Shown: positions 20,295-43,492 of the stretch, in pieces
Layout of the letters: each line of letters begins with the position of its first letter
Numbering within the stretch: position 1 is the stretch's first letter
IMG/VR virus record: IMGVR_UViG_3300033233_000052
Location: 1-51,867 of that record
From: a virus
Length of the DNA stretch: 51,867 nt
Strand: one strand, 5' to 3'
Position numbers and translations under genes: made by a program
Notes under the pieces: generated by a model
Told to the model about the DNA's origin: nothing
Seen by the model: the letters and a program-made list of their open reading frames with translations, nothing else
The model's database searches: none

Positions 20295-20495
20295 TCATAC
20301 CAACTCCAGCTTCTCTGCAATCCAACGATCAACAACAATGTAACCATCATGCTGGTGAATCTCATTCACTGTGGAGAGGGGGAACCAAACTTCGCCTACT
20401 GTGTCTATCTCAACCAGGAGGGCGCGAACGGTCTCATGCTTCACTTCGCAGTCAATGCGGACGCCTTCACCACCCTCATTATTCTTCCGTGCCAT
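20295..20495 (-). CDS. Small hypothetical protein after recA-like gene
   Basis: 66 residues from the ATG preceded by GGAGGAAGT. Charged N-terminus (MARKNNEGGEG), then an alternating sheet-like pattern (VRIDCEVKHETVRALLVEI, GEVWFPLSTVNEI). Overlaps the end of the RecA-like gene by 17 bases. Function unknown. Confidence 0.6.
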   Translation of the reverse strand: MARKNNEGGEGVRIDCEVKHETVRALLVEIDTVGEVWFPLSTVNEIHQHDGYIVVDRWIAEKLELV

Positions 20496-22614: not shown

Positions 22615-22781
22615 CTGCATTCTCCTTCTACGTGGTAAAAACTACTATAGGGTGGGGTGGACTATCCCTTGGTGAGAAACCTCACGCTGGCCGTTCATTC
22701 CCCGCTTTCCAGTTCCAAGCATACCTTCCGATATGCGGGAATCCGTGCGTAGTGTCCGGCAGTTGGTGTCCACCCCGTTGG

Positions 22782-23300
22782 TCAGTTCTTCCGATCTCTA
22801 CTCATTGCTGCCCTCGCCACCGCAGCCTGGCCGGCGGTCAAGTCCTTCTCCCCCTTTGCTTTCACTGCCGCTGTATAGTAGCCGGCCTGATACAGATTGC
22901 AAAGGTACCGAATAGCATAGCCACGCTGCGAAAACGCCTCCTGCAACGCGAACAGGACACCGGCCCGCTTCGTACGTTTCATGTAGATGTCATAGGCCAT
23001 GACATGCTTCATATCTTTGGCCACGAAATCCCGGATCATGCTCTCATTGGCCTTTTCGCTGCTCTGCCGATACTCAACACCACAAGCCGCATCCTGCCGA
23101 GCCATTGCCTCCTTCGCCTCGTCCTTCAACGACAGCGCCAGAGCATACTCCTGCGACACCTGAAAATACAGGTCGGCCTGCTGTTGCAACGCATCGTCCA
23201 AAGCGTTCTTGTCGATGGCCAGGTAACCTCGGTACTCCGCTACAAACGAATCCTGCGTTTCAGGCAGCGGAGCAACCTCTCTGATAGTAGGGCGTGCCAT
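22782..23300 (-). CDS. Helical phage protein, possible recombination mediator
   Basis: 172 residues, almost all helical, with a coiled-coil-like middle (YLAIDKNALDDALQQQADLY, EEYALAL-type heptads) and a final LYQAGYYTA segment. This family recurs between SSB and clamp-loader genes in phages. A UvsY-like mediator role is an inference from position. It starts MARPTIREV, a copy of the RP-x-I motif. Its ATG overlaps the stop of the clamp-loader gene. The 167 bases downstream (22615-22781) show no convincing gene. Confidence 0.55.
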   Translation of the reverse strand: MARPTIREVAPLPETQDSFVAEYRGYLAIDKNALDDALQQQADLYFQVSQEYALALSLKDEAKEAMARQDAACGVEYRQSSEKANESMIRDFVAKDMKHVMAYDIYMKRTKRAGVLFALQEAFSQRGYAIRYLCNLYQAGYYTAAVKAKGEKDLTAGQAAVARAAMSRDRKN

Positions 23301-25345
23301 TACTCTTCTCCTCCAAAAATTACGGACCCAACGGCCAGGTACAGCGGCGCGTTCTTCTCACTAGCATTGTAAAACGGACTGCTGAAAGCGCCAAGCGTAC
23401 GGAGCAGGCGGACCACTTCTTTGTCACCCTTGGCCTTGGCCAATATAGCTGTGATGTAATTCACAATTACCAGCCGCACGCTCTCTGGATTTACCCCTGC
23501 AAGAGCATCTATTTTCCGCGTCGCTTCGGCCCATGTGCGGCCCTGCGAGCTGACCAGGAAACGGGCGAGGTCTATCGCTTCCACATTCTCGAGAGCTGTT
23601 TCGAGGATCTGCTGTATCTGCTTTTCGTCCTCAAGACCATCTACCATGGAGAGATATTGCAACGCCTGCCGAACGCTACCGTCCGCCTTCCGCGCGATCA
23701 TGCCACAGCATTTATCTGTGGCTACGATCCCTTCCAGTTTGGCAATCTGCTCAAGGTACTCCGCGATCACCTCCCACTGCACCCCTTTGAGGTCGTAGGT
23801 GTGACAGCGAGTGCGGATAGTATCCGGAACCTTGTTTGCCTCTGTGGTGCAAAATGCCCAAAAAACATGATCCGGTGGCTCCTCAATCGACTTGAGCAAG
23901 GATTGCCACGTGGCCTTGGAAAGGGAATGACAATTATGTACTATCAACCCTTCAACAGCATAGGACGGGTGCCCTTCGATTTCAAGATCAATAAATTCCG
24001 CATACTCAATACCGTCGAAAATATCCGTTTGAATACCGCTGTCTCGGATTGCCTCACTTCCTCGTTCAATACTCGTAACACTCGCCATCCTAAGCTGGCC
24101 AGCCTCTGATCTTTCTTCTGGTCTAAAGCCTTCACTCGCGGATTTTGATGCCCTCTCCCATCCACCTCTACAGCCAACTTGATCTTGGGCAATGCTAAAT
24201 CCACCTTGTAATTGGAGGGCCAACCGTCCTCCCCAGGAGAACGCCCTGTATGGATTACAAACTCCAGTTCGCAGCGTAAAAGCCGCTGAAGGGTGAGCTG
24301 CTCTGAGGTGTGCTGGCCATTTCCACCCCTCTTCCCCTTCCATATATGAAGAGAACCCTTTGCCTCCTTTGTGGCCCGCATTTTCTCGAAAACTCCAGGC
24401 ATCCGCGACGGGTTGTTTCTCTTCATCCTCTCGGAACAATCCTTGGCTACCTGTTTCCAAATTTCCGGATTCTCTACTTTTGATCGTTCTACCCCTTCTT
24501 TTACACTTTGTTTTACTTCTTCCGATCGAGGATGAGCTCGCTTCCTCCCCGCTGCAATATTGCCACACTCCCGTGAACAATGCTTTGACCATGACCAATA
24601 CTTCTTCCCACATTCCGGACAAGTATTGGCTCGGCGTTCTTTCTGACACACCAAACAGTAAGTAGTTCCTGGCAAACGACTCACAAAAATCTCTTTGCAT
24701 CTCCGGCAAATGTGCTGGTAATCTGTCTCGAACTTTGCATATTGATTTGACATGGTCAAGTTCTCCCGCAGGTACCCATCCTTCTGGAGTTAGAAATAAA
24801 TGGTCCCGTGAGCAAATAATACTTTTTCCATCTGCCAAACGCAAGCGGATAATCCGTGTCAATGCAACCTTGTTCCTAAATACAGTCCTGACCTGTCGAA
24901 CCCCTTTCAATCCGATAACGAAATCGCCCACTCGAATATCTTTTATGGTCACAAGCCCGGTTGGGGTATTCACCAAAGTATCTGGCGCGAAGCATTCATC
25001 TATGATCACAAATCTTGTCGGCTGTTCACCAAGAGCTTGGTACTGCACCATGCTCGTAACCTGCCGCATATCGTCCACACCGCTATTCGTCGCTGCATCA
25101 ATCTCAAGGATGCCCTCTTCCGCCCCCACGATCTTCGCAATGATCCGCGCAATCGTTGTCTTCCCCGTGCCCGAGGGCCCCGTGAGGAGATATGCGTGCG
25201 GGGTATGCTGCTGAAGCACTGAAGCCAACGACGCCAGCACCGCCTCCTGCCCCAGTACCTCAGTCAAATCCTGGGGGCGATATTTGATGTGCAACGGCCT
25301 GTCATCACGCTTCACTTCTTCCTTCTTAATGCTGGGTCTAGCCAT
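23300..25345 (-). CDS. dnaX: Clamp loader large subunit (DnaX-like) containing an intein
   Basis: 681 codons from the ATG giving MARPSIKKEE; a longer frame to 25396 overlaps the polymerase end and is less likely. The loader parts are 1-117 and the last ~210 residues. They show YRPQDLTEVLGQE, Walker A GPSGTGKTT (56-64), Walker B VIIDE interrupted exactly after DE, then CHSLSKATWQSLLKSIEEPP (the CH-L and SIEEPP segments) and TIRTRCHTY (sensor 1 and Arg finger region). Removing the 354-residue intein leaves about 327 residues, a normal phage clamp loader. The N-terminal MARPSIKK is an RP-x-I motif. It loads the sliding clamp encoded nearby. Confidence 0.9.
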   Translation of the reverse strand: MARPSIKKEEVKRDDRPLHIKYRPQDLTEVLGQEAVLASLASVLQQHTPHAYLLTGPSGTGKTTIARIIAKIVGAEEGILEIDAATNSGVDDMRQVTSMVQYQALGEQPTRFVIIDECFAPDTLVNTPTGLVTIKDIRVGDFVIGLKGVRQVRTVFRNKVALTRIIRLRLADGKSIICSRDHLFLTPEGWVPAGELDHVKSICKVRDRLPAHLPEMQRDFCESFARNYLLFGVSERTPSQYLSGMWEEVLVMVKALFTGVWQYCSGEEASSSSIGRSKTKCKRRGRTIKSRESGNLETGSQGLFREDEEKQPVADAWSFRENAGHKGGKGFSSYMEGEEGWKWPAHLRAAHPSAAFTLRTGVCNPYRAFSWGGRLALQLQGGFSIAQDQVGCRGGWERASKSASEGFRPEERSEAGQLRMASVTSIERGSEAIRDSGIQTDIFDGIEYAEFIDLEIEGHPSYAVEGLIVHNCHSLSKATWQSLLKSIEEPPDHVFWAFCTTEANKVPDTIRTRCHTYDLKGVQWEVIAEYLEQIAKLEGIVATDKCCGMIARKADGSVRQALQYLSMVDGLEDEKQIQQILETALENVEAIDLARFLVSSQGRTWAEATRKIDALAGVNPESVRLVIVNYITAILAKAKGDKEVVRLLRTLGAFSSPFYNASEKNAPLYLAVGSVIFGGEE
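23933..24994 (-). mobile_element. Intein in the clamp loader Walker B site
   Basis: 354 codons from Cys (CFAPDTLVNT, block A) to His-Asn (HPSYAVEGLIVHN, blocks F and G), followed by the +1 Cys of CHSLSK. Block B is visible as DGKSIICSRDHLFLTPEGW. Both splice ends are in frame with the exteins and there is no stop between them. The middle ~270 codons of this frame look like noise, because that DNA encodes an endonuclease in another frame. Insertion into the conserved DE-C-H motif of an ATPase is a typical intein site. Confidence 0.85.
23944..24753 (-). CDS. EDxHD (Vsr-like) homing endonuclease nested out of frame in the intein
   Basis: 269 residues in the +1 frame relative to the clamp loader, with its own ATG and a GGGAG site 9 bases upstream. 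The N-terminus has two or three zinc-finger-like Cys clusters (ICRRCKEIF, YCLVCQ, TCPECGKKY, HCSRECG). A basic helical middle contains a NUMOD-like KMRATKEAKG segment. The C-terminal nuclease has VDLALPKIKLAVEVDGRGH, KDQRLASLGWRVLRVLNEEV, the pattern of very-short-patch-repair-like EDxHD homing enzymes. It begins just after intein block B and ends inside block F. It would promote spread of the intein. Confidence 0.8.
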   Translation of the reverse strand: MSNQYAKFETDYQHICRRCKEIFVSRLPGTTYCLVCQKERRANTCPECGKKYWSWSKHCSRECGNIAAGRKRAHPRSEEVKQSVKEGVERSKVENPEIWKQVAKDCSERMKRNNPSRMPGVFEKMRATKEAKGSLHIWKGKRGGNGQHTSEQLTLQRLLRCELEFVIHTGRSPGEDGWPSNYKVDLALPKIKLAVEVDGRGHQNPRVKALDQKKDQRLASLGWRVLRVLNEEVRQSETAVFKRIFSTVLSMRNLLILKSKGTRPMLLKG

Positions 25346-27962
25346 TTTCTTTCTCCTTGTACCACAATAGCCAATCTGCGTTATCCTGGGAGCCAAACTT
25401 GGCCACCTCCTCTAATGCTCCCCAAGTCTCCCCAATGGCCAATTCTATCACAATGGGAACCGAAATGAAATCGTACCGGCAGTCACACATCTTGTTCGCG
25501 ATGAACTCAATATCCTCTTCTGCTGTTTTCTTCGGCAAATAAAAGGTCAAGTCATCATGCACGTTCAAAATGGGCTGGTACTGCGGCTTGTCCATTTCAT
25601 ACGAACAGAGTGTCAGCTCATCCATCTTATCCAACACCACGTGCGCCGCAGTACCTTGGATCGGGGTATTGGTCAGCTCATTCATCGAGCAGGGACCGTA
25701 CCGCCGCCATCCAAAAAGCGTTTCACAGTAGCCGGTCTTGATGTAGTTCGTTTTAACCTGCTGCTGCCACGTTCGTACCTCAGGGTAGGCACCCCAAAAC
25801 TCCTCCCCGATCTCCTGCGCCACTTCCACAGGCACTCGCAGCATGGCAGCGCATGCCTCCGGCACAGAGCCGTAGAAGCTGGCAAACACCCAGTTATTCT
25901 TAATCTCATTGCGGCCAGTTTTGAATATCAGCTTCTTGTCCTTCGGATCAACCTCAAACTCCTCAATCAGGTAATCTTTCCACCCTGGGGCCTTATCCAA
26001 AAACCGTTGCGTCCAATACGCATGAATATCAAGGCCACCCCACAATTCTTTCTGTAAGCGCTTCGCCTTCGCAGCCATCGCTAAAATACGTGCCTCAATC
26101 TGGCCGTAATCAAGAGAGGCAATGATACAATCCTCAGGTGAGCAAATGATGTTACGGATCTCCCGATTCTTTCGCTTAGGCCAGTTCTGGGCGTTTGGAT
26201 CCTCTGAAGCAAGCCGAGTAGTAATCGTCACAAGATGATTAAAGTTGCTGTGGATCAAACCGTCCGCATAAAGACGGTTTCCAGTGGGAAGATACGGCGC
26301 GACGAACGTCCCCAACAGTTTCTGATTAGAGCGGACGATCAGGGTGCCCTGTGCAGCGGGATGATCTATTTTAACTAGGACCTCTTCCTCCGTACTGTAC
26401 TTCTTCCCCACCAGCATCTGGTCCTTGTACCCCAACTCAATCAATAAATCTTTCACATCCGTCGGGGAGGTGGGCTTGAACTTCTTCTGCCGCTTCTGCT
26501 CCCACGCTTTCACATTTCCGTTCGTCGCAATCTTCGCTTCCGCTGCGGCCATATCCGCGGCAAGGGACTTGCTCAACTGCACGATCATCGCAGTATTGGG
26601 CACCAGCCCCTTCGCCTGCGTCCTGACCATACTGCGAGTTCGCCCCATGAGGAATTCATAGACGTGCATCAAGCCTCGTTCCTGAAGCTCTGCCTCCTGA
26701 ATCAACGAAGCTGCGTGAGTGTATTTGGTATCCCCCCCGTTGTACCGCAACACCTGCTCAAGTGGATACTCGTCCACCCGCGTACGGTCCACGTCACTAA
26801 ACTTTTTCAGCAGGAACCCAAACAACCGCAAACAGACGTCGTCCAACGAATTGATCCGCCTCTCCTCCTTTATCCCTTGCCGAGCGAACAGAGCGTGAGC
26901 CTGAGCCATTGTGTCACCCCACTCGGTCTCAAACAGGAGGTCCTCACCATAGAAATATGACAACCACTCCTGCTCAAACTTCGCGCTGTGACACCACTTC
27001 TTCCCGCTTCCCAACAGGTACTCACGGATGACTTCATCCAGCTGCTTCAGCTGCGGCTCTGTCCACTTCACTTCCCGATGCCGGACAGGGATGGAAACAG
27101 TGTTTTCATAAGTGCCCACAGCAATGGAAAGGATCTTCGCCCCCTTGGCATAGGGGCGCAAACCGTTCGTTTCAATATCCAAACCGTGTGGCCCAACCCC
27201 CACTTCCGCAAGAGCATCAGCAACGTCATCCACTTTCCAACTTGTAATGGACCGGATATTGTGAAATACTGTTTTGGTATCCTCCGGGGAAGGCTGAACA
27301 TAATGCTCGAGGAAATCAAACGCCGCCTGCAACTCACGGGAAAAGAAACGGACCCACTCCTCCCCTTTCTTCTTATCATGCCGCACTCGCGCAACGTACT
27401 CAGGATGTAGCAAGGGGAAGTACCACACCGCGTGCCCACCGATTCGTAGCGGTAACTTCCGACCATGCCAATTCATAATCCCACTCACACCGGTCAGCAA
27501 CTTGAGTGGAATGCCGCCAAAACCAAGGACAATCTTGGGCTTGCTCGCCGCAATGTCATCCTCTTGCAACTTAGAACAGCAAGCCAACTCCAGATCCGTT
27601 GGCGCTCGATCACTTCCATCGGTAACTGGCCTACAACGTACAGAATTATTCCACCGAATACGCTTCAACCATTTTGATGGAATGAACCCACGCAAAAACT
27701 TCCCGCCATCGCTGCTGAATTGAACCCCAGCATTATCATCATCCCAAACTGGGGCCTCACCAAGAATATAAATCAGTGGGTGAGGAGCATCCCCTGTGGG
27801 CAGCATCTTCGGGTGCCGCAGCACAATCTTGTCCAACGGACAGTTGCGGCAGGAAAGAGTCGTAGTGGAGAGGAGCGAAAGCTGCCGCGAGGGCGCGGTA
27901 ACCGCCCTCTCCTCCGAGGAATAAAAGAAGCCCACAGGATTATTTGCTTGTGCCGATACCAC
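25338..27962 (-). CDS. Fusion of uracil-DNA glycosylase-like domain and family A DNA polymerase
   Basis: 874 residues. Residues 35-215 look like a family 4/5 uracil-DNA glycosylase: Cys ligands for an iron-sulphur cluster at 38, 41, 110 and 128/129, GEAPVWDDDNAG at 68-79 and a terminal HPEYVAR. Next comes a 3'-5' exonuclease (GLDIETNGL near 262, KFEQEWL). The rest is polymerase: motif A SLDYGQIEARIL, the O-helix RNEIKNNWVFASFYG and motif C NVHDDL. Such a fusion could read template uracil or repair it at the fork. The GTG start at 27962 overlaps the clamp gene and has no good ribosome binding site, so the start is uncertain by some residues. Confidence 0.85.
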   Translation of the reverse strand: MVSAQANNPVGFFYSSEERAVTAPSRQLSLLSTTTLSCRNCPLDKIVLRHPKMLPTGDAPHPLIYILGEAPVWDDDNAGVQFSSDGGKFLRGFIPSKWLKRIRWNNSVRCRPVTDGSDRAPTDLELACCSKLQEDDIAASKPKIVLGFGGIPLKLLTGVSGIMNWHGRKLPLRIGGHAVWYFPLLHPEYVARVRHDKKKGEEWVRFFSRELQAAFDFLEHYVQPSPEDTKTVFHNIRSITSWKVDDVADALAEVGVGPHGLDIETNGLRPYAKGAKILSIAVGTYENTVSIPVRHREVKWTEPQLKQLDEVIREYLLGSGKKWCHSAKFEQEWLSYFYGEDLLFETEWGDTMAQAHALFARQGIKEERRINSLDDVCLRLFGFLLKKFSDVDRTRVDEYPLEQVLRYNGGDTKYTHAASLIQEAELQERGLMHVYEFLMGRTRSMVRTQAKGLVPNTAMIVQLSKSLAADMAAAEAKIATNGNVKAWEQKRQKKFKPTSPTDVKDLLIELGYKDQMLVGKKYSTEEEVLVKIDHPAAQGTLIVRSNQKLLGTFVAPYLPTGNRLYADGLIHSNFNHLVTITTRLASEDPNAQNWPKRKNREIRNIICSPEDCIIASLDYGQIEARILAMAAKAKRLQKELWGGLDIHAYWTQRFLDKAPGWKDYLIEEFEVDPKDKKLIFKTGRNEIKNNWVFASFYGSVPEACAAMLRVPVEVAQEIGEEFWGAYPEVRTWQQQVKTNYIKTGYCETLFGWRRYGPCSMNELTNTPIQGTAAHVVLDKMDELTLCSYEMDKPQYQPILNVHDDLTFYLPKKTAEEDIEFIANKMCDCRYDFISVPIVIELAIGETWGALEEVAKFGSQDNADWLLWYKEKENG

Positions 27963-28986
27963 TAATCACGTGGACAAAGGAATCGCTGCGCAGGCAAATT
28001 GAGCGCTCTGTCACCCCCATCTCCGTTGCCAACGACAGCACCCGCCGGAGCATCTCCGCATTCACCACCACCTTGGCCTGCGGCACCTTCGCAGATATTG
28101 CCAGGTTGGTGCCAGCCTTCCCAAGAGCTGTTTCAGTATTAATGCTCAACGTCTTGTCGTTCACCGACAGCGTGGTGTTCTTTTCCGCGGACTTGTTCAG
28201 GATCACACAATTCCGCTCGATGACCCGCTCGAGGTCCGCCGGCACGTCAAAGCCAGCATACCCTTCACTGTGCTGGCTGATCACCGCCTCGAAGTCCGTC
28301 CCTTTGAACTCCATCAACCGTGCAATCACAAAGATGGGCGGCGTAGTGGCAAAAGAGAAAATGGCCGTCGTACCGCTCATGCCCAGGGACGGTGCTTCTT
28401 CCGTCAACTTGGCCAAGTTCAACGCCTGCTCCACAGCAGGCTTGGGGAGGACAGCGCGGGCATTGATGTTTTTCGGCTCACCCACCGTATAGCGCGACAG
28501 CGATATGTTGTCCGTGCTGTAGAAAAGGGCTCCAGGGCCCCTTCCGTGCATGATCGTAATGCCAATAAACTCGGGACGGCGCGGGTCGCGTCCAACAGTG
28601 ACAGAGCAGCGGGAAAGCGCTTCCTTGAACGTATCGTCGAGCGGGGTCTCCCAACTTGAGGCATCGTCGGGGAATTTGAACAGAAACTCCTTCTCTGACA
28701 ACATAGGGAGGTCCGTATCACCGGTATCCGTTTTGATTGTAAGGGTAAGGCCCTTCTGCACCAACTCCACTTCCTCCCCGCACGTCCCGAGGATGCCAAG
28801 CAGCGTATCACCTTTCACCGCGCCCTTAATCCCGGTCTCGAGGGCCACGATCACCGCGCTCACGTCATCGTAGGCGTGCACGGTATCGCCAGCGAAACAG
28901 AAGTGGCTGAGAATAGGGATAAAATCCACCCCCACAAGAGAGGTCTTTGCTGCATTAAGAACAAACAATAGGTCTGCTGTTTTCAC
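27940..28986 (-). CDS. Sliding clamp (DnaN-like)
   Basis: 348 residues without catalytic motifs and with the repeated sheet-helix pattern of three-domain beta clamps. N-terminal KTADLLFVLNAAKTSL and the GITIMHGRGPGALFYSTDNISLSRY segment (a clamp-typical L-x-x-TDG-like strand) support this, as does the location beside the polymerase and clamp-loader genes. It would tether the polymerase to DNA. It is a plausible partner for the recurring RP-x-I motifs. Overlaps the polymerase gene by 23 bases. Confidence 0.65.
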   Translation of the reverse strand: MKTADLLFVLNAAKTSLVGVDFIPILSHFCFAGDTVHAYDDVSAVIVALETGIKGAVKGDTLLGILGTCGEEVELVQKGLTLTIKTDTGDTDLPMLSEKEFLFKFPDDASSWETPLDDTFKEALSRCSVTVGRDPRRPEFIGITIMHGRGPGALFYSTDNISLSRYTVGEPKNINARAVLPKPAVEQALNLAKLTEEAPSLGMSGTTAIFSFATTPPIFVIARLMEFKGTDFEAVISQHSEGYAGFDVPADLERVIERNCVILNKSAEKNTTLSVNDKTLSINTETALGKAGTNLAISAKVPQAKVVVNAEMLRRVLSLATEMGVTERSICLRSDSFVHVISGIGTSK

Positions 28987-32568: not shown

Positions 32569-32578
32569 CCAAGCCGGC

Positions 32579-33184: not shown

Positions 33185-33237
33185 TTCACTTCTCCTTGCT
33201 TGAAATGGCCAATTAAAATTTAGGGGAGGCCGTTACC

Positions 33238-33696
33238 CTATTCCCAACCTCGGAATCCGATGTTCGGGTTAAAATACGTCGCCGAGTTCTTGCTGTTCTC
33301 TCGACACTCCACAGACAAGATCCAACATCGGCCTTTCGTCCGCTCACGCAATTCCTGGTCTGCAAACTTGCACACCATCTCCGCCATCCCCTCCGTGCTC
33401 GTGGACGGCACCACCGTCAGCTGGCAAGCGCCGACCTTATGCAATTCACGGAACAGTTCCAAATAGGGGTCATCATCCTGGATCAACAGCGTATGGTCAA
33501 ACTTGAGTTCGAGGTAGTCTTTCAACCAACCCAGGTCACCAAAGTCCACCACAAATCCACACTTGTCTCGCTCCTTGGCCTCGAAAGAAAAAATGAAGCT
33601 GCGGGAGTACCCGTGTATGACCGCACAGTTTGAATCATGCCGCCACTGCCGGTGCGCACACGGCAAGTTATCATAGGTCTTCGTACAAGTGAACAT
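33238..33696 (-). CDS. queD: QueD-like 6-carboxytetrahydropterin synthase
   Basis: 152 residues from the ATG that overlaps the primase stop (TGATG), with GGAG 6 bases upstream. PCAHRQWRHDSNCAVIHGYSR holds His 15, the catalytic-type Cys 24 and His 28; the usual HGH is HGY here. FVVDFGDLGWLKDYL and KFDHTLLIQDDDP are the conserved later motifs. QueD converts dihydroneopterin triphosphate to carboxytetrahydropterin. The HGY form seems to be common in phage QueD-like proteins. Confidence 0.75.
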   Translation of the reverse strand: MFTCTKTYDNLPCAHRQWRHDSNCAVIHGYSRSFIFSFEAKERDKCGFVVDFGDLGWLKDYLELKFDHTLLIQDDDPYLELFRELHKVGACQLTVVPSTSTEGMAEMVCKFADQELRERTKGRCWILSVECRENSKNSATYFNPNIGFRGWE

Positions 33697-34703
33697 CAAT
33701 GACTCCATTCTCGAGTTAATTCTTGAACTTGGATTTGGGTGAGGTCACCGGGATCCTTTACCCCATTAGGCAAACGACCTAGCTGAACTTTTCCTCCCCT
33801 CACCACCTCCTCCAACTGCCATGTTAGCCTCGGATTTGCGGACAAAATGTCCTGGTCCAGTAAGCATATAACAGACCTCGCGGCCGCTGCAATCTTAACG
33901 ATACGACTAAACTTTTCCTTACTGACCGCGACTCCCAGAAGCGCCACAGCAGTACAGCCTTCTCCATACATCGCGATCTTCATCGCGTCCATCGGCCCCT
34001 CAGTTATCACAAGAACATCTCCATCCTTCACCTGCGCGTAAGCCACGTCCTCATTGAACACCGCATCACGTGGCAGCTCTGGATTGGCCTTGTACCGCAG
34101 CGACACGTCAGACCGTACTGTGCGGGAAGTCCACCCCACTATTTCCTCCTCAAATCCAAACACTGGAATGACTATTCGCTCCTTGTAGTCACCCACCCGT
34201 GCATAGTACAGGGCGAAGACCTGCGCTGTTTCATTCGCTGGGCGGAAACCGCGAGACTCGAGGTAGGACAAATACCGATCACGCCCTCGGCTAGTCGCTA
34301 CCCACATAGGGTGGAACTCTGGAAGCATCTTTGCTTGTCGTTGCGGCGCCGCGAAAAACGTCTCCTGCTCTGTCGCGCGCAGACGCTCAAGCGTAGCATC
34401 AAAGTCGTCCACATAAGCGGAGCCCGCGGCCACGAGCTTCTCCGCATGTTGCTGAGTGCAATTGATCAGCTTCTGAATCAAGCGGACAGGATTCCGCCCA
34501 CGATGCCGGCCATCCCGCAGGCAACCCCACGAAGGGGAAGCCGCCTTGAGAGAAAGGCCTAGATGCTGCGATGGATCCGACTGGCCACAAAAAGGACACT
34601 TGACCGATATTTCGCCATTTTTGGTATTCGGCCCAGCAGTCACGAATTCGATATTGTGCTTCTCGCAGAAGCGGAGCCAGTCAAATCTTACGGAGTTGAG
34701 CAT
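33696..34703 (-). CDS. DnaG-like DNA primase
   Basis: 335 residues from the ATG preceded by GGGGAGG. An N-terminal zinc ribbon is visible (KCPFCGQSD, then the HLGLS strand and WGC). The Toprim domain shows LVITEGPMDAMK and LLDQD. It would prime lagging-strand synthesis with the DnaB-like helicase encoded two genes upstream. There is no visible C-terminal helicase-binding extension. It overlaps the SNF2-like helicase gene by 23 bases. Confidence 0.85.
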   Translation of the reverse strand: MLNSVRFDWLRFCEKHNIEFVTAGPNTKNGEISVKCPFCGQSDPSQHLGLSLKAASPSWGCLRDGRHRGRNPVRLIQKLINCTQQHAEKLVAAGSAYVDDFDATLERLRATEQETFFAAPQRQAKMLPEFHPMWVATSRGRDRYLSYLESRGFRPANETAQVFALYYARVGDYKERIVIPVFGFEEEIVGWTSRTVRSDVSLRYKANPELPRDAVFNEDVAYAQVKDGDVLVITEGPMDAMKIAMYGEGCTAVALLGVAVSKEKFSRIVKIAAAARSVICLLDQDILSANPRLTWQLEEVVRGGKVQLGRLPNGVKDPGDLTQIQVQELTREWSH

Positions 34704-36327
34704 CACGCCTCCCCTCACAAATGGCCTTAAACAAGTCGCGCCCCTCTTCGATGAACCCCCACACTTTTTCATCCACTGTGCCCACCGCCTCAAGCAGGTA
34801 TCGGTACACCCTCCGCTTCTGCCCTGTGCGATACACCCGCTTCCACGCTTGCCAAAATTCGGAGGTGCTTGGCGGCAGCTCATAAAAGATCACAAAGCGG
34901 GAGACGTTCTGCAGCTCATCAATCCCTGTTCCTCCGCTTTCCGTGTTCGCCACGAGCACACTGCACCCAGGGTCATTAAGAAAACGATTGTAATGGTCAA
35001 TCGGCCGCTTCACCCCTCCCCGCAGCACCGCATAATTTTTCACGCCAAGCTCTGCAAGCGCAAGCTCAATCAGCTGGCCGGTGAAACGGTAGTAATGGAA
35101 TATGACCACCTTTGTGTCGATCGGCACAGACTCAAGGAGTGACAGCAACGCCTCGAGCTTGGGGTTATCCTCAAATACATACTCCGCCTTTTCTCCCTCG
35201 TCCGATTTCAAGCCCATGAACCCTGCTGTGATCTGTCGCGTGCGGTGGAAGAAACTGTCAGTCAGCCGAAAGTCGCCTCGAGACTGCGTGAGCGCTTCAA
35301 CGGCCTTGTTATAGTAAAGCTTCTGCTCCGCGGTCAGCTCAATGGGGATCACGTTTGAGACCACGTCCGGCAGATCCTGTACCTCAGCGTCCTCATACCG
35401 GATGCTCCGATGCTGGATGATCCGATGAACGTCCTTCTCCATTGAGGAGTCAAAGCGCCAGTCAATACCCCCAAAATGATTCACTCCACCTTTGTAAAAG
35501 GCCTGGCGGAAAAGAGACATTGTGGGGCCTAACGTCTCCCCATCATCCACCACCTTAAACTGCGACCATGCCTTCAACGGGTCACGCCCAAATAGTGTTC
35601 CAGTCCCACCGAACCGAACCATGCACTGCTTGGCCACGCGGGATGTGAGTCGATGGACAAGGGAGTCTTGGGAGCCCAGCATCTTGTGGCTCTCGTCCAG
35701 TATTAGACCACCGTTGGCAAATCGTTTCACGAATTTATTGACCTTGGATTGGACCGGAAACCGCTTCTGCTTGTTCTTTTTTCCTGTGCCAAACTCCGTC
35801 ATATACACCATGAGCCCAGCGTAGTTCATTATAAGCAGGTCAGCGTCAGTTTCAATCAACTGCTCACGATCCTCCGCACTGCCCAACAGCTTCGCGTAGG
35901 TGAGGTTCGGCGCGTGGATCTTAATCTGCTTCGTCCAACTTTCCACGTTCACCGCCCGTGGAACAAGAATAAGAGAGCGGCCTAACCCACGCTCCGCTTT
36001 ATAGTACCGCAGCAAGGCCAACCATATAGCCGACTTCCCCAATCCCATGTCAAGCAAATGGAGGAACTGCGGATAGGCAATGCCTAACGCGATGCTCACA
36101 AGCTGGTGCTGGAAAGGCTCTTTCTCAAACTGGTCCCAATCCGGATACACCAGGTCTTCCAACTCTTTCCGCTTCAGCCCCTTCATCCATGTGTGGCTCT
36201 CACGGGGCCGGTCAATGAACTCCTGCACCACCTTCGGAGAGATCAGGCAGTGGGCAAAAATCGCCTCCGCCTTTTTACGGCGTGAGAATGTTTGGCCGCT
36301 TTTTAGCGACCGGCCCTTGATTAGCAT
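34681..36327 (-). CDS. SNF2-type superfamily 2 helicase
   Basis: 548 residues. Motif I is HLLDMGLGKSAIW, motif II GGLILDESHK, motif III FGGTGTLFG, motif V ANTESGGTGIDEL and motif VI QAWKRVYRTGQKR, all in SNF2 order. Related proteins accompany phage DnaB and primase genes and are thought to remodel or unwind DNA at origins and forks. Its exact role is unknown. It overlaps the DnaB-like gene by 53 bases. Confidence 0.85.
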   Translation of the reverse strand: MLIKGRSLKSGQTFSRRKKAEAIFAHCLISPKVVQEFIDRPRESHTWMKGLKRKELEDLVYPDWDQFEKEPFQHQLVSIALGIAYPQFLHLLDMGLGKSAIWLALLRYYKAERGLGRSLILVPRAVNVESWTKQIKIHAPNLTYAKLLGSAEDREQLIETDADLLIMNYAGLMVYMTEFGTGKKNKQKRFPVQSKVNKFVKRFANGGLILDESHKMLGSQDSLVHRLTSRVAKQCMVRFGGTGTLFGRDPLKAWSQFKVVDDGETLGPTMSLFRQAFYKGGVNHFGGIDWRFDSSMEKDVHRIIQHRSIRYEDAEVQDLPDVVSNVIPIELTAEQKLYYNKAVEALTQSRGDFRLTDSFFHRTRQITAGFMGLKSDEGEKAEYVFEDNPKLEALLSLLESVPIDTKVVIFHYYRFTGQLIELALAELGVKNYAVLRGGVKRPIDHYNRFLNDPGCSVLVANTESGGTGIDELQNVSRFVIFYELPPSTSEFWQAWKRVYRTGQKRRVYRYLLEAVGTVDEKVWGFIEEGRDLFKAICEGRRDAQLRKI

Positions 36328-37720
36328 TCCGTACCACCACGTCTAAGTGTTCTTGGTAACTGTCGTTCATCCGCACAGTATCCAAACAAAACTGGCCTAT
36401 CGCGTAGGCTTGGGATATCAACAGCATGAACTTATCCTCGTCCGTCCGCCCCTTCGCTACAAACAACCGGCCAAGGTTCGCTTGCTTCTCTTTCAACGAC
36501 TGGGTGTAGGTCAAAATATGATCCGATGTGGCCACAAGACTCCAGTCCTCTTGGGCATCCGTCTCAAGAACCACCTTCGCAAGAGCACCAGCGCGGTTGG
36601 ATTGATGCGCTGCGCAAATGGCTATATTCCGATCCACCGCTATGCCGCGCAGGTCCTCAAACAGCATACCCAACTCAACACGGAAATTCTTCGGGTCCAC
36701 ATTCATCAGCTTAGGGTAGTCCACCAAAACGATATCCGGAACGAACTGCTCAAAGCGCTCGAGAGCATCCAAGTAGGCCAGGAATCCATTCATCGTAAGA
36801 GAGCGCGTTGGAAACTGACGGACGATCAAATTGCGACGGGCGTGGATATTGGTCAGCTTATTACTCAGCTTCGCGAACGTCGCGTCATCGTCAAACGAAT
36901 CCACCGGCACCTGCTCATTGCACTTCAGCTCAATCAGCCGGTCCAGCGTGTCGCGCCCAAAGCGGGTAACCATGTACCGCGCCTTCCGCTTACCCACTGC
37001 AAACAAGCTCTGCAGGAAACGCTGGATGTATTCATCCTCGCTCATCTCAAGCGTGATCACCAACGTCTTCCACCGCTGCAAGAGTGCCCTCTTGCCAACG
37101 TGCGTCAGCCACCAGCTCTTCCCCTTGCCCGACGCTGCGATAAATGTGTGCAATGTTTTCCGCGTGGGGACCAACTTGCGGATATCCAGATCCTTGATGC
37201 CCACCAAAACACAGTCGCCGCTGCTGTCCTCTTTTGCGGCTAGACGAGCTAGACCTTCCTCAAGCGTGGAGCCCTTCCGGAACAGGGACAGTCGCTTCTT
37301 CAGCGCAGCCTCAAGAATCACTTCCGCCCGCTCGGGGTCACCCGCTTGCAGCGCATCACCCGCCGCGACTATGCCCAACTTGAGCTGTTGCTGGCGGACA
37401 AACTTCTCAAGCTGCCCAAGGACGTACTCCTCGTTGATGCCTTGCGACAGCTCGTACACATTGCGGATGACCCCCTCATAGAGTTCCTTTTGAGGATGGG
37501 CAGTATTAAAGACGTCGTCGAATAGATCAGGGAGGTGAGAGCCTGGGGGTTTCTTGAAGCGGTCGATATAGTCGGAGACCCGCTCAACGATGTCACGAAA
37601 TACATCGGAGGAAAAGAGGGAGGAGTCAACGCTGTTGCGGACAAGCTGACAGCAGGACTCGCTGAACGCAAGGAGTACGAGCAGGTTCTCTTGTTGAGAA
37701 CCAGAGAGGCGGTCCGCCAT
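36275..37720 (-). CDS. DnaB-like replicative helicase
   Basis: 481 residues. An N-terminal helical domain precedes a RecA-type motor: Walker A FIAASGKGKSWW near residue 193, Walker B VPDIVLVDYPKLM near 331 and CAAHQSNR as the sensor region. It would form the hexamer driving the fork. The C-terminus ends KKRPNILTP, an RP-x-I motif at the last residues. Gene order is helicase, SNF2-like, primase. Confidence 0.85.
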   Translation of the reverse strand: MADRLSGSQQENLLVLLAFSESCCQLVRNSVDSSLFSSDVFRDIVERVSDYIDRFKKPPGSHLPDLFDDVFNTAHPQKELYEGVIRNVYELSQGINEEYVLGQLEKFVRQQQLKLGIVAAGDALQAGDPERAEVILEAALKKRLSLFRKGSTLEEGLARLAAKEDSSGDCVLVGIKDLDIRKLVPTRKTLHTFIAASGKGKSWWLTHVGKRALLQRWKTLVITLEMSEDEYIQRFLQSLFAVGKRKARYMVTRFGRDTLDRLIELKCNEQVPVDSFDDDATFAKLSNKLTNIHARRNLIVRQFPTRSLTMNGFLAYLDALERFEQFVPDIVLVDYPKLMNVDPKNFRVELGMLFEDLRGIAVDRNIAICAAHQSNRAGALAKVVLETDAQEDWSLVATSDHILTYTQSLKEKQANLGRLFVAKGRTDEDKFMLLISQAYAIGQFCLDTVRMNDSYQEHLDVVVRNANQGPVAKKRPNILTP

Positions 37721-37726
37721 TGCCGC

Positions 37727-38455
37727 CTAGGAGATATGGAGAATTTTGTGCTGTTGCAAGGAAAGACGATAGCCGTGCTTAATAGCAAGTTCAACAGCGA
37801 ATGCGGTATTCTTCTCATTCTTCATCAAGTCGTGCTCGTCACACGGCTGCACAAAGATATGATCCACTGTGGTACCCTTCGGAGGCCTCGCAATAAGCGA
37901 GGGCATTCGTTGCTTCTTCAAACCCTCAACATCTACCCCCCGCTGCGTGGACCCGATCGGCAAACCGTCCACATCCACTTCACCTGCGGTCACAATATAT
38001 TTCCAAGCGGTGGCGTGCTTCTCAATCATCGGATGAACCTTGCGAACTTTGGGGGACACCACAATCGTCAGCTCAGCCATATCCTCCAACCCAGGCACCC
38101 ACAACGTGCCTGCTGTTTCGATCTGGACACGGTACCCGAGGCTAATGAGATTGGAACAGAGGGGCTCAATGTTTTGCAGCATCGGCTCACCGCCAGTGAT
38201 CACAACGAGCTCGGCCTCCGACTCCCCCCTCACCTCCACCACCTGAGTAAGGAGCCCTTTGAGACTTATTGAATACCCGGAATCAAACTCGGAATCGCAC
38301 CACTTACAATGGAGCGAGCAGCCTTCTGTGCGTAGAAATATCGCCGGCGTTCCCGCCAGTGGGCCCTCACCTTGAATGGTGAGGAACACCTCCTGAACCC
38401 GTAGCTCTTGCCCGTTGCCCAACTCCTGCTTCCGCGCTGGATTCGTCCCGAACAT
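37727..38455 (-). CDS. queE: QueE-like 7-carboxy-7-deazaguanine synthase (radical SAM)
   Basis: 242 residues. FLTIQGEGPLAGTPAIFLR followed by CSLHCKWCD (Cys 46, 50, 53) gives the CxxxCxxC cluster motif of radical SAM enzymes in a QueE context. ITGGEPMLQ is the GGE motif. QueE makes 7-carboxy-7-deazaguanine from carboxytetrahydropterin. No QueC gene is seen in the window, so the final base could be the carboxylic acid form or be completed by a host or distant phage enzyme. A palindrome lies just upstream. Confidence 0.85.
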   Translation of the reverse strand: MFGTNPARKQELGNGQELRVQEVFLTIQGEGPLAGTPAIFLRTEGCSLHCKWCDSEFDSGYSISLKGLLTQVVEVRGESEAELVVITGGEPMLQNIEPLCSNLISLGYRVQIETAGTLWVPGLEDMAELTIVVSPKVRKVHPMIEKHATAWKYIVTAGEVDVDGLPIGSTQRGVDVEGLKKQRMPSLIARPPKGTTVDHIFVQPCDEHDLMKNEKNTAFAVELAIKHGYRLSLQQHKILHIS

Positions 38456-39020
38456 GATTGCCGCCTTTCAATACAGTATTGATAAGAAAAGGTAGCCACC
38501 CCGCTTGGGCATACCCTGGGAAATCTTGGTCTATAACGTGAGGAGCCTCACGAACTGTCATTAATATCCCAACCCACAAATTCTTAGATTCTTGAATATG
38601 TGGTAGAGCCAAGTCAGCAAACCAAGCAGCAATGGCGTTCTTATTTATGGGGATATTACCGGGAGGAAACATTGGAACCAACCATTTCCACAAGGCTTCC
38701 TCCTCTACCAGAAAACTCTTAGCACGAGACGAATATGTAAGAAACTCATCGCATGAAGGCAGATGATGCCCCAAAGAGTTAAGCCGATGACGAAGAGCTT
38801 CATATAAAGGACTATGAAACCCATATCGAGCAGAAACTTTTTCTCCTGCCTTCCTCTTCGGCTGTACCGTCTTTAAGCAGCGCAACTTCAAAATAAGAAC
38901 ATCAAGCTCATCTACGGTTAATTTTGCTGCCGCCTCCACCAGCTCAAGCGGGGCGGACACGGCGGCGGCTCGTTGTCTGTTCACCAATTGCGGTGAAACA
39001 AAACGTCGCGGCAGGTCCAT
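38367..39020 (-). CDS. Hypothetical protein overlapping queE
   Basis: 217 residues. The N-terminal part contains SAPLELVEAAAKLTVDELDVL; the middle is rich in aromatic residues and His. The last 30 residues overlap the start of queE in another frame and look low-complexity, and the first 25 overlap the small AT-hook-like gene. These overlaps (89 and 77 bases) are far longer than elsewhere here, so a frameshift or a later real start is possible. Function unknown. Confidence 0.5.
   Translation of the reverse strand: MDLPRRFVSPQLVNRQRAAAVSAPLELVEAAAKLTVDELDVLILKLRCLKTVQPKRKAGEKVSARYGFHSPLYEALRHRLNSLGHHLPSCDEFLTYSSRAKSFLVEEEALWKWLVPMFPPGNIPINKNAIAAWFADLALPHIQESKNLWVGILMTVREAPHVIDQDFPGYAQAGWLPFLINTVLKGGNHVRDESSAEAGVGQRARATGSGGVPHHSR
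38468..38482. promoter_or_regulatory. Palindrome upstream of queE
   Basis: TCAATAC and GTATTGA flank one base, giving a perfect 15-base palindrome 13 bases upstream of the queE ATG. It lies within the upstream coding region. It could be an operator; chance is not excluded. Confidence 0.3.
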
Positions 39021-39236: not shown

Positions 39237-40136
39237 TCACGTATCTACTTGAAAAGTATCAGGAGCAACCTCCCCTCCCTTACCATACAGCTTCCGCATA
39301 AATACCCGCTGATCTTTATCTTGCTTCTCCTTCTTTTTCTTTAACGCGGCTTTCTGCTTCTGCTCAAAATCCTCCCCCAACTTAGGAGCATCCAAAACAT
39401 CACGGAAACCCAACGTGATATGAGTTACTTTACGCTTATCAAACCCACGCTTACGAGGAGTCAACACTACGTTAAAACTGGTATGTTCTCGAACAACCTT
39501 GGCTGCCCGCTGCATCAACATCCAAGTATCATTCCAGCTTGATTCTTCAGGCGTACGCAAATAAACTTTCAACCAATCTACTTCAAAGGTGCATCTTGAT
39601 TCATTTAACTTTCGGCAAAAACTAGCAAGAATGAATAACTGTGCCGCCCGGGCACTCTGCAACCGCTTAAACTCCTCAATACCAATCAAAGTGAAATTTT
39701 CATTTCTCAAATTGAGAAGCAACTCTTTCAACTTCTCATTCAATTCAAAATAAACCACTTCCTCCTGCTCATCCCAAAAAGCGTATCGAATAGGCCAAAC
39801 TACAGCTATCCCAATCTTACCGTCTGGCCCCTCCTCAAAATCAGGAATTACTAAAGATGCCCCATCCCCCACATTACGGATAACATCAAGAACCGCGCGC
39901 TTATTTCGCCAGGTAGAAAAACCAGCAAGATGCATAAGGCCTTTCAACGAAACCTTAAACCGTCCAAAGTTTTTATCTGTTTGCGGCAGAGCTAAAAGCC
40001 CCATAAGAACTCGATGCTGCGGCAAAGTCATCCTCTTCTCCGCAAGAGCATAACGGTTGTTTACTTGAATCTTTTCCTTAGCTGGCGCGGTAATAACCTC
40101 AGCTGGGAACAAACTTTTAATAATAGGTCTGCTCAT
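39237..40136 (-). CDS. rep: Rep_3-type replication initiator
   Basis: 299 residues. NNRYALAEKRMTLPQHRVLMGLLAL at 27-51 and the second unit with EKLKELLLNLRNENFTLIGIEEFKRLQSARAAQLFILASF are the tandem winged-helix pattern of plasmid Rep_3 initiators. Plasmid relatives bind iterons and melt the adjacent AT-rich DNA. Five iterons and an AT-rich stretch lie directly upstream. It begins MSRPIIKSLF, an RP-x-I motif. A GGAGGG site precedes the ATG and a TTGACA promoter lies 30 bases further. Confidence 0.8.
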   Translation of the reverse strand: MSRPIIKSLFPAEVITAPAKEKIQVNNRYALAEKRMTLPQHRVLMGLLALPQTDKNFGRFKVSLKGLMHLAGFSTWRNKRAVLDVIRNVGDGASLVIPDFEEGPDGKIGIAVVWPIRYAFWDEQEEVVYFELNEKLKELLLNLRNENFTLIGIEEFKRLQSARAAQLFILASFCRKLNESRCTFEVDWLKVYLRTPEESSWNDTWMLMQRAAKVVREHTSFNVVLTPRKRGFDKRKVTHITLGFRDVLDAPKLGEDFEQKQKAALKKKKEKQDKDQRVFMRKLYGKGGEVAPDTFQVDT

Positions 40137-40165
40137 ATACCCTCCATCACAAATTTACTTACGCA

Positions 40166-40193
40166 TATTTATTTATCTATCATTGTTTGTCAA
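40166..40193 (-). promoter_or_regulatory. Promoter of the rep gene
   Basis: On the minus strand a consensus TTGACA (40188-40193) is followed after 16 bases by TAAATA (40166-40171), a weak -10. It lies in AT-rich DNA between the iterons and rep, so Rep binding could also regulate it. Confidence 0.5.
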
Positions 40194-40248
40194 TGCTCTT
40201 TCGTGTTATTAAAATTGTCTAGCTATGTTTTAACCAAGTTTAGGCCAT

Positions 40249-40356
40249 GCGATAGGTATCGTAGTTTCTACTAACTTTTTGCGATAAGTGTCGAAAAGGC
40301 CTACGATAGGTATCAGTAACCACGCGATAGGTATCAGTAACCACGCGATAAGTGTC
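40249..40356. repeat. Five iterons upstream of rep (candidate origin)
   Basis: Twelve-base repeats of form GCGATA-[G/A]-GT-[A/G]-TC start at 40249, 40281, 40303, 40324 and 40345; the third has A as its first base. Spacings are 32, 22, 21 and 21 bases, that is three and two turns of DNA, so all sites face the same side of the helix. Between them and rep lies an AT-rich stretch (40137-40240). This is the arrangement of iteron plasmid origins. Confidence 0.85.
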
Positions 40357-40506
40357 GCAAACAGAGTAATTAACCCGTTAATACCAAAAAAGAAAACGAA
40401 CGTGTGAAGTTTTTGAATTTGTCGAAGACTACTTGAATTTAATTCGTCCCCCAAAACGTACGGCTACCACCTTGTCCGCTCGCTACGCTCGCAATAATCA
40501 AGACAA

Positions 40507-41301: not shown

Positions 41302-42174
41302 TTATAAATCCCAAACTTCACGACCACCGAGATACACGGGGAACCGCGGGGCATCCTTTACACCGATTAAGAACGATTTGTACTTCACAATTTTACCTAC
41401 TGCTGCTTTTCTATGCGACCAGAACCACACGCGATCCTCATCATTGAAACCAGTACCAATTTGAAACTCAATTCCAGTTTTTAGATCGCGAACTGCGAGC
41501 GCACCAGCCCTTCCCTTACCAATCATACCAATTTGGTGGTGTGAGCGTTTTGAATAACCCAGTTCATTGGTGGTCTGTTCATTTGTATTCTCAAACTCCT
41601 CAAGCACCTTAAGCACCTCCGCCTCACTGTCCTGGAATCGTTTAACCTTGAGCATACCACCTTCACGCACTGTTGACCGCCCAAACTTATAAATACCAGT
41701 TGGGTCGCGGAGGATTAAACCTTCATAACCTGCTACAAGGCAATAATTCTCATAAGCAACCAGCTCACTAATGCTGCGCACCACCTTCTGTTCAAGCACA
41801 ACCACGCCTAGTGAAGTGCGCAGTGACCCAAGCCGTGAACCGAACCCCCCTTCTGCAAGGTAATTATCAAACACATAGAACGTGACAGCTGGTGTGCCGT
41901 CCTGTCGGCTTGTGGCACTGCCCGTGGCGCGAAATACATCACGCGCCGTAGGGCTCCCCACAATTAGTTCGCCGTCATACCCGCTGAGCCAATGTTTGCT
42001 GAAGGCTTGCATAACGTGCCGATTTGGTATTGCCTTTAACGACCGTGACCGAAGAATCCCATCTATCACAATGCCGCGCACGCCGTCAAGCTTCGGCGAC
42101 GCGAAGACAGGGAAATGCACCGTAGCCGGATCAACGTTCACCGCAAGCATTGGCTTGATTACATTTCTTTTCAT
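41302..42174 (-). CDS. ATP-dependent DNA ligase
   Basis: 290 residues from the ATG after AAGGAGAATAGG. The nucleotidyltransferase motif I is KLDGVRG (adenylated Lys near residue 28); later motifs are DGELIVG, GYEGLILRDP and GGMLKVKR. A small OB domain ends the protein, making it close in size to short phage ligases such as that of T7. It seals nicks during replication and recombination. Precedes the zinc-finger genes and follows the VWA gene. Confidence 0.9.
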   Translation of the reverse strand: MKRNVIKPMLAVNVDPATVHFPVFASPKLDGVRGIVIDGILRSRSLKAIPNRHVMQAFSKHWLSGYDGELIVGSPTARDVFRATGSATSRQDGTPAVTFYVFDNYLAEGGFGSRLGSLRTSLGVVVLEQKVVRSISELVAYENYCLVAGYEGLILRDPTGIYKFGRSTVREGGMLKVKRFQDSEAEVLKVLEEFENTNEQTTNELGYSKRSHHQIGMIGKGRAGALAVRDLKTGIEFQIGTGFNDEDRVWFWSHRKAAVGKIVKYKSFLIGVKDAPRFPVYLGGREVWDL

Positions 42175-42187
42175 CCTATTCTCCTTA

Positions 42188-43492
42188 TTATCGAATCTGG
42201 ACGGTGTCGCCAAATGGTGCTTTCCGTTCGTTCGTCGCTGCCCACAAGACCGACCACTCCGGCTCATGTTCTGGGAATGAACCGAATAAATCCGTCAGAT
42301 AGACCACGCAAGCAGGCTCCAGCCCCTGCTGCTCAATCCACTTGAAGGGTGGCCTGAAGTCCGTTCCGCCCCCACCCGCCGGCCGCAACTTAATCGGCAG
42401 GTCCTCAACGCTGTACTCCTCCGTCCTTGCGACCGCCGAGTCACAGTACACGACGTGGATGGCCTCGGGGTGCATGTCTTCCGCGATTGCGTTGATCTCT
42501 TTCTCGAACAGGCCGAGGATGTAGGAGCCGATGCTCCCGCTTGTATCGACCACGACCACCATGGGCCCCATTCCTTCGCTTTTCATCGAGGGCATGTAGA
42601 TCTTCCGTTGCAGGTAGCGACGGTTGGGCCGCATCCAGCTCAGGTCATCCCTCGCCACCGCAGTGCAGAAGCGCCGCAGCTCATCCTGCCAGCTTACCTT
42701 GGGCGTGAGCGCCTCCTGCACAGTGCGCATCAGCCCGGCAGGCATGGAGCCTTGCGACAGAGCATTGTTCATTGCCTGCTGCATTGAGACCTGCCACTCC
42801 TGGGCGTTCGCAGTGCGCTCCGCTGGGGAGGCTTCGGACTGGCCATCGTCCCCCGGCATATCCCGCACCTCTCCCGTGCATTGCCCAAGGGCTGTGGATT
42901 GCCCCTGCCCATTGCTCGTTGGGCTAGAACCCGCTTCGCCAGCTTGCTCGCTTGTGCTGGCCCCAGCTTGCCCGCGAACAGCGTCTTGCGCCCCTTCCTG
43001 CGTTCCGTCAGCATCCCCTTGATTTCCTTGGGAATTCTGCCCAACCCCTGAACCGCTACCCTGTTGATTTTCTTGATCTTTTTGCTTCTGCTCCTGGAGC
43101 AAGCGGTACACTTCTTCCGCAGTGCGCCCAGCGTGCTCGCTGCTAGACAGTGCCCCTTGGGGCAACGATAGCCCGCTGTCAGCTACGATCGGATTTATGA
43201 CATAATCCGCCGCATCATTCCAGGTGTCCGCGTCCCTGTCGCCCCTACGCACACAATGCTCAAGGGCGGCATGCAGGACCTCGTGGGCAAGGACGCCTGC
43301 CACCTCTTTGGCCGGCAGTGCAGCGAACGCTTCGGGGTTAAATCCGATTTGCTTGCCGTTGACCCAGACCAATTTGCAGGACGGGTCTTCGACCGGCTCG
43401 AGATACATCACGAGATTGCCGAAGAACGGATGGTCAAGCAAGAGTGACCGACGTGCCCGCTTGAAAGCGGGATGGAGATCTTGGTTGCTCAT
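42188..43492 (-). CDS. DUF2201-type metallopeptidase with VWA domain
   Basis: 434 residues from the ATG overlapping the upstream stop. The N-terminal domain has LAHEVLHAALEH (HExxH at 70-74) as in DUF2201 putative metallopeptidases. A Gln/Gly/Ser-rich linker (about 135-215) follows. The C-terminal VWA-like domain has VVVVDTSGSIG (metal-ion site), GGGGTDFRP and VYLTDLFG. Such proteins are partners of MoxR ATPases, and one is encoded nearby. In cells these pairs act as chaperones or in metal insertion; the phage role is unknown. Confidence 0.8.
   Translation of the reverse strand: MSNQDLHPAFKRARRSLLLDHPFFGNLVMYLEPVEDPSCKLVWVNGKQIGFNPEAFAALPAKEVAGVLAHEVLHAALEHCVRRGDRDADTWNDAADYVINPIVADSGLSLPQGALSSSEHAGRTAEEVYRLLQEQKQKDQENQQGSGSGVGQNSQGNQGDADGTQEGAQDAVRGQAGASTSEQAGEAGSSPTSNGQGQSTALGQCTGEVRDMPGDDGQSEASPAERTANAQEWQVSMQQAMNNALSQGSMPAGLMRTVQEALTPKVSWQDELRRFCTAVARDDLSWMRPNRRYLQRKIYMPSMKSEGMGPMVVVVDTSGSIGSYILGLFEKEINAIAEDMHPEAIHVVYCDSAVARTEEYSVEDLPIKLRPAGGGGTDFRPPFKWIEQQGLEPACVVYLTDLFGSFPEHEPEWSVLWAATNERKAPFGDTVQIR

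Follow-up and report, generated by a model that had tools for sequence, protein, structure and literature searches.

The window analysed here is the whole IMG/VR virus record IMGVR_UViG_3300033233_000052 (51,867 bp, classed as linear). Nearly all recognised genes are located on the minus strand, with transcription running from right to left. In transcription order the record comprises a right-hand block of ATPase, DUF2201 and ligase genes, a Rep_3 gene, a replication cluster and, at the left end, packaging and head genes. The features discussed below are listed in Table 1. A DUF2201 metallopeptidase/VWA protein and a MoxR-like AAA ATPase are encoded at 42188-43495 and 45439-46416; in one relative (G001) both also occur together, along with the 293-aa protein that the window encodes at 43725. 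Among the head genes lies an HslV-family peptidase gene (phrog_1040, 6791-7228), and a homing endonuclease match with deviant codon usage (11555-12280) overlaps the end of the terminase gene region. The only tail gene recognised in the 51,867-bp record was a repeat-rich tail-fibre-like match, and the record was therefore taken as a fragment. Since the usual tail genes are missing from it, the "lytic-type" lifestyle given to this phage in a preceding sequence-only reading can only be presumed.

Table 1 Features of the window at and around the rep locus
Feature	Position	Strand	Remark
Clamp loader	23300..25396	-	
DNA polymerase	25338..27962	-	
Sliding clamp (DNA polymerase processivity factor)	27940..28986	-	
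Single-strand DNA-binding protein	21493..22620	-	
RecA	20479..21483	-	
DNA primase	33696..34883	-	
DNA helicase (phrog_62)	34681..36327	-	
DnaB-like replicative helicase	36275..37720	-	
queE-like radical SAM gene	37727..38455	-	First recognisable gene of the conserved replication cluster
217-aa ORF, 3' of rep, overlapping the queE start	38367..39020	-	Weak C-terminal similarity to the relatives' hairpin-linked gene
rep, Rep_3-family replication initiator, 299 aa	39237..40136	-	Pfam, PHROG, Foldseek
AT-rich (69%) stretch from iterons to rep	40137..40249		Candidate unwinding element and/or rep promoter region
Iteron 5 (closest to rep), CGATAGGTATCG	40250..40261	+	
Iteron 4, CGATAAGTGTCG	40282..40293	+	
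Iteron 3, CGATAGGTATCA	40304..40315	+	
Iteron 2, CGATAGGTATCA	40325..40336	+	
Iteron 1 (most distant from rep), CGATAAGTGTCG	40346..40357	+	
Second AT-rich (61%) flank, two copies of TTGAATTT (40413, 40433)	40358..40480		Alternative candidate unwinding element
Strong hairpin, 23-nt arms, 10-nt loop	40496..40551		Upstream border of the cassette
ATP-dependent DNA ligase	41302..42267	-	

The sequence-only reading had named a Rep_3 initiator gene, and the domain searches bear this out. The rep product matches PF01051 (Rep3_N) with 43.1 bits against a Pfam cut-off of 22.4 (E 7.2e-11). PF21205 (Rep3_C) aligns to residues 186-242, in the expected order and place, with 16 bits, which is below the cut-off of 21.1 (E 0.015). 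Residues 27-272 match phrog_4402, "replication initiation protein" (E 2.9e-12), and NCBIfam gave no match for Rep. A structure model calculated with AlphaFold2 from the single sequence had low confidence (pLDDT 43.8). When this low-pLDDT model was compared with the PDB by Foldseek, all 46 matches with E ≤ 0.001 (TM ≤0.37) were RepE54/RepE, Rep with iteron/DUE DNA (8ac8 and 8aan, which we take to be RK2 TrfA) or RctB, some of them being assigned to RepE54/RepE from their entry series as titles were incomplete. The next match followed at E 0.036. The Foldseek result backs, without proving, a RepE/TrfA/RctB-like fold of the modelled protein. Thus, membership of the Rep_3 family is supported by Rep3_N, the sub-threshold Rep3_C and the low-confidence model.

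Close relatives of Rep were found neither among 50,697 phage records nor among 72,556 plasmid records (tblastn up to E 10), the sole plasmid match having an E value of 4 over 32% of the query. Peptide patterns revealed no close relative in IMG/VR, and a PDB sequence search returned chance matches only. In the absence of a close relative neither a donor plasmid nor a tree could be established. The GC content of rep is 0.434 compared to 0.541 for the record, the second lowest among the 51 genes of ≥100 aa, and its codon usage is deviant (z -4.2, sixth of the 51). Low GC content and deviant codon use fit a foreign origin. A compositional outlier would also be expected of a plasmid replicon that was inserted and is now decaying without function. 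Nevertheless, the ORF is intact and both the iterons and their phasing are well kept, and we give this explanation hardly any credence.

Upstream of rep lie five 12-nt direct repeats with the consensus CGATARGTRTC (40250-40357). Their presence agrees with the sequence-only reading, whose spacings of 21, 21, 22 and 32 describe the same array read from the opposite end; counted from the rep side they are 32, 22, 21 and 21. Searching the 51,867-bp record for CGATANGTRTC gave exactly five matches, all within the array and on one strand, and no match for the reversed control pattern. With one mismatch to CGATARGTRTCR allowed, a single further site appears at 50,277; 0.77 matches in all are expected. 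A pattern-free chain search also found five copies in the tile holding the array, a number that never rose above two when the same 444 bp were dinucleotide-shuffled 200 times. Besides this tile, the only 444-bp tile of the window with at least four copies covers a coding 15-nt tandem repeat near 44.85 kb; such a repeat is contained in the tail-fibre-like gene (44631-45197, repeat at 44842-44974). Each of the four spacings deviates by 0.2-0.8 bp from whole turns of 10.6 bp, and when sets of four spacings are drawn at random from 15-40 bp, 0.056% of the draws come within 1 bp of a multiple of 10.6 at every step. The iterons show partial self-complementarity, at 8-10 of 12 positions.

The iteron pattern was also looked for elsewhere. 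In viral collections it occurred on one contig, L011, and the full 5.8-kb record of that contig gave no Rep_3 match; in genome contigs it occurred in 18 stretches, 12 of them in one Verrucomicrobia MAG. A comparison of the protein P0001 with six of the source genomes of these stretches gave one fragment with E 0.126. We therefore regard the matches in L011 and the genome contigs as chance or dispersed repeats. A systematic scan for arrays outside long ORFs yielded nine arrays with iteron spacing versus seven with control spacing; iteron-spaced arrays are thus not rare, and the scan by itself is not evidence. A version of the scan based on exact 10-mers was discarded, since it did not detect the array of the window and returned mostly coding repeats. 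All three recognised plasmid-type initiators, in the window and in two relatives described below, have an adjoining array.

Iterons upstream of rep could occupy an operator position, and binding to operator DNA is known for Rep_3 proteins such as RepE (title of PDB entry 2z9o). Rep might accordingly act mainly as a transcription regulator, or compete with plasmids or satellites through shared iterons, rather than initiate replication. Nevertheless, five phased direct repeats next to AT-rich DNA fit an origin better than a simple operator, the same iteron pair recurs in no viral contig other than L011, and no close plasmid Rep was found. This role is very unlikely.

The AT-rich region between iterons and rep that the sequence-only reading had described measures 113 bp and includes the window's third richest AT 60-mer. 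The fourth richest lies on the far side of the iterons (40386 on). Clear 13-mer repeats were absent from both AT-rich flanks. No promoter was found on the minus strand before rep; promoter-like sites were fewer than in shuffled sequences, and for both reasons we do not claim a rep promoter. DnaA boxes are usual in iteron plasmids. Here, no match to the DnaA box TTATNCACA with ≤1 mismatch was present between 35,173 and 41,549. This lowers the fit to the classic iteron-plasmid kind but not to the model developed below, because RK2 is described as not needing DnaA in some hosts (PMC4980987).

A full replisome, as claimed beforehand, is indeed encoded: a DnaB-type helicase, a second helicase, primase, polymerase, clamp, clamp loader, SSB, RecA, ligase and SbcCD were found. 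Genes for 7-deazaguanine synthesis or transfer (queE, queD, folE, tgt-like) are interspersed among the replisome genes (29211-38455), which suggests that the phage DNA is modified. The DNA polymerase is related to those of Edwardsiella phage ZHS (35.3%) and of Vibrio Mardecavirus phages (about 31-32%). Relatives were collected as 80 IMG/VR loci from a viral scan with polymerase alignment and one locus (L009) from a DnaB scan, and window proteins were mapped on 16 IMG/VR records and on phages ZHS, SSP002 and MAR10, some of all these sequences being partial. The order queE-dnaB-helicase-primase-(folE)-(tgt)-clamp-pol-loader-ssb-recA-sbcD-sbcC is common to most mapped relatives, with partial departures in G032, G029, G040 and G042. 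By protein mapping queE was not found in G001, G017, G019, G025, G030, G040, SSP002 and MAR10. An exonuclease gene lies between queE and dnaB in G005, with related copies in many records, and has no relative in the window.

The rep-iteron cassette stands at the head of this conserved cluster, with the strong hairpin (dG -34.1 kcal/mol, z -6.1) on one side and the gene preceding queE on the other. Many relatives have a strong hairpin beside a gene of about 214 aa in the vicinity of the replication cluster; it is often G-rich, and its short AT loop reads TTTA/TATA or the complement TAAA. Such hairpins were seen in the window and in L094, L098, L101, L102, L106, L116, L130, L133, L142 and L008. 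Their stems vary in sequence among relatives while the position is kept. The relatives thus keep a hairpin in the same setting, and the stem and loop in the window differ from theirs. In eight of nine relatives tested (G013, G014, G015, G016, ZHS, G009, G038 and G019, of which G016 and ZHS are identical in sequence there) it precedes the aligned block of the hairpin-linked gene by 4-148 nt, and in the ninth (G005) it lies at the 5' end of the hairpin-linked ORF. In the window, 1,476 nt separate the hairpin from the 217-aa gene, and the iterons and rep lie in this interval. The 217-aa ORF, which has no Pfam, PHROG or NCBIfam match, shares a 33-aa match with the corresponding ORF of G005 (BLASTP E 2e-5 pairwise; tblastn E 0.002). 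G005 is the closest relative by structural genes (major head protein 79%, terminase 65%) and has no Rep_3 match (PF01051). From this comparison of gene arrangements it appears likely that the cassette was inserted between hairpin and 217-aa gene; we call this likely rather than proven because a 33-aa match is what links the 217-aa gene to the gene of about 214 aa.

The conserved hairpin could be a terminator or part of an ancestral origin. A rival reading is that the Rep_3 origin fires first, as a secondary or early origin, and that an ancestral origin close to the hairpin or at another place has stayed active. The hairpin is retained beside the cassette, and no Rep_3 or RPA initiator was recognised in most of the relatives that share the replisome, from which it follows that another initiation route exists in the lineage. 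On the other hand, the relatives' hairpin-linked gene is barely recognisable in the window, and its stem and loop are unlike those of the relatives. We consider such a division of labour improbable.

Initiator genes were searched for in the relatives. PF01051 gave matches at E up to 0.01 in two of 81 IMG/VR records (50 + 31), G025 (E 8.2e-6) and G040 (E 0.009), neither above the cut-off; many records are fragments, so that two of 81 is a lower bound. The six named phages had no PF01051 match, and with phrog_4402 and P0001 as queries nothing was found in 40 relatives. PF10134 (RPA) matched one of 46 records, G040, above the cut-off. The RPA-like initiator of G025 is related to that of G040 (24% over 292 aa, E 1e-9) but not detectably to the window Rep. 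We infer at least two acquisitions from these relationships. Both initiators are flanked by iterons, four 22-nt copies with spacings of 26, 22 and 22 in G025 and four 24-nt copies with spacings of 22, 32 and 21 in G040, and short AT-rich repeats occur near both arrays. The G040 array is phased as in the window (0.99 at 10.7 bp), while that of G025 is not (0.47) because of its first step. The G040 initiator sits between dnaB and the clamp loader. In Vibrio phage SSP002 the helicase is preceded by an O-like protein (PF04492, E 3e-4, below the cut-off), an annotated replication initiation protein and a DnaC-like AAA protein; the latter, a DnaC-like loader, has no homologue in the window by protein mapping. 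In Vibrio phage MAR10 a small AT-rich array with spacings of 20 and 21 (L155 7155-7207), possibly the origin of this phage, lies some 1.5 kb ahead of the initiator gene. Mardecavirus repeats at 23-bp spacing near the ParB-like gene (L002 35263-35322 and 38157-38247; L156 16572-16629) are possibly ParB sites.

The GC skew had been proposed as a check on an origin at 40.2 kb. The cumulative skew falls steadily with no turning point, which is nearly uninformative as nearly all recognised genes lie on one strand. At four-fold sites the skew is 0.106 to the right and 0.208 to the left of the cassette (gene permutation p 0.0135). The lower value on the right is the direction expected if forks leave there and points weakly to the cassette; the best split, nevertheless, is located at 44.6 kb (p 0.052) and not at 40.2 kb.

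The Rep_3 domain, the non-random phased array, the AT-rich flanks, the position and the unlike initiation modules of the relatives are directly supported. On this basis we consider it probable that rep, the five phased iterons and the AT-rich DNA form a cassette that was inserted at the head of the replication operon, where its most likely role is that of an origin for phage DNA replication. In the scheme described for iteron plasmids, Rep attaches to the iterons, AT-rich DNA is opened and DnaB takes up its position at that site (PMC4980987). By the same scheme, Rep would bind the iterons on one helix face and melt the adjoining AT-rich DNA, and the phage-encoded DnaB-type helicase, primase, polymerase, clamp and loader would be recruited. 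As neither a DnaA box nor a homologue of the DnaC-like loader was found, recruitment would probably proceed by direct contact between Rep and DnaB, or host factors may be used. By analogy, rep is likely to be autoregulated via the iterons in front of it. The missing part of the genome may hold another origin.

The sequence-only reading had left two explanations for the plasmid-type module, recruitment of a plasmid origin for phage replication or a phage-plasmid state. We favour the first, because the cassette heads a conserved replication operon and two relatives have other plasmid-type initiators with iterons. In a phage-plasmid, the Rep_3 replicon would keep the genome as a low-copy plasmid between infections and lytic replication would start from another origin. 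Rep_3 with upstream iterons is indeed a module of plasmid maintenance, and a precedent exists in mycobacteriophage Miko, whose repA is reported to be needed for the prophage, its deletion leaving lytic properties apparently unaltered (PMC7157519). Precedent for the other outcome is given by the lytic Leptospira phages LE3 and LE4, which are described as related to circular plasmids (PMC6078989). A search for partition and integrase genes, suggested as a check, nevertheless gave the phage-plasmid state no support from the 51.9-kb record: ParA (PF13614) had no match, a tyrosine integrase was absent and there was no homologue of the SSP002 ParB. No repressor was present among the ORFs scanned, and no polymerase relative appeared in 84,980 bacterial and archaeal species genomes in a pattern scan of low sensitivity. 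Because the record lacks the tail region, absence of partition and integrase genes here does not mean absence from the phage, and the missing part could carry partition and repressor genes. A ParB-like protein is present in many relatives; in phages such a protein need not mean plasmid partition. With the cassette standing at the head of the replication operon, we judge the phage-plasmid state unlikely.

Beyond the single phage, the different modules raise the prospect that origin and initiator are an exchangeable cassette within one lineage of replisome-encoding phages: O-like and DnaC-like proteins in Mardecavirus, RPA-type initiators with iterons in two IMG/VR phages, Rep_3 with iterons in the window and none recognised in most others. 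We put this forward tentatively, as an idea with slightly less than even prospects. If true, the phage helicase could be loaded by unrelated initiators, and phages would acquire origins from plasmid-type sources while keeping their replisome. The choice of start site by replisome-encoding phages is understood for few lineages. A plasmid-type initiator with a 110-bp iteron array makes a small candidate origin that can be cloned and tested, and comparison with relatives that have the same replisome and other initiators may show if initiation is a modular process and how parts are traded between plasmid and phage replicons.

No title or abstract opening in the open-licence literature searched described a lytic phage with a Rep_3 initiator. 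Four known systems come closest to the locus. With iteron plasmids of the mini-F RepE, RK2 TrfA and V. cholerae RctB type it shares WH1, a putative WH2 with a match below the cut-off, helically spaced direct-repeat iterons, AT-rich DNA and a rep gene adjoining the iterons. In contrast to them, the cassette resides in a phage that itself encodes helicase, primase, polymerase, clamp and loader, has no DnaA boxes and has no close sequence relative. Vibrio Mardecavirus phages SSP002 and MAR10 and Edwardsiella phage ZHS have homologous replisome genes in largely the same order, but the SSP002 module comprises an O-like protein, an annotated initiation protein and a DnaC-like loader, and none of the three phages has a Rep_3 match. 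Phage-plasmids such as mycobacteriophage Miko and P1 likewise combine a phage genome with a plasmid-type rep gene, whereas partition or lysogeny genes were not seen in the 51.9-kb record. The satellite PLE also uses a plasmid-type initiator with iterons, which work with the replication proteins of phage ICP1, and is reported to replicate only in ICP1-infected cells (PMC7145576). The PLE initiator, however, is RepA_N and not Rep_3, PLE is a satellite and not a phage, and its function was tested according to the same report, while that of the cassette in the window is predicted. The parts of the cassette are known from elsewhere; what is unusual is their combination with a complete phage replisome and the occurrence of other plasmid-type initiators in the relatives.
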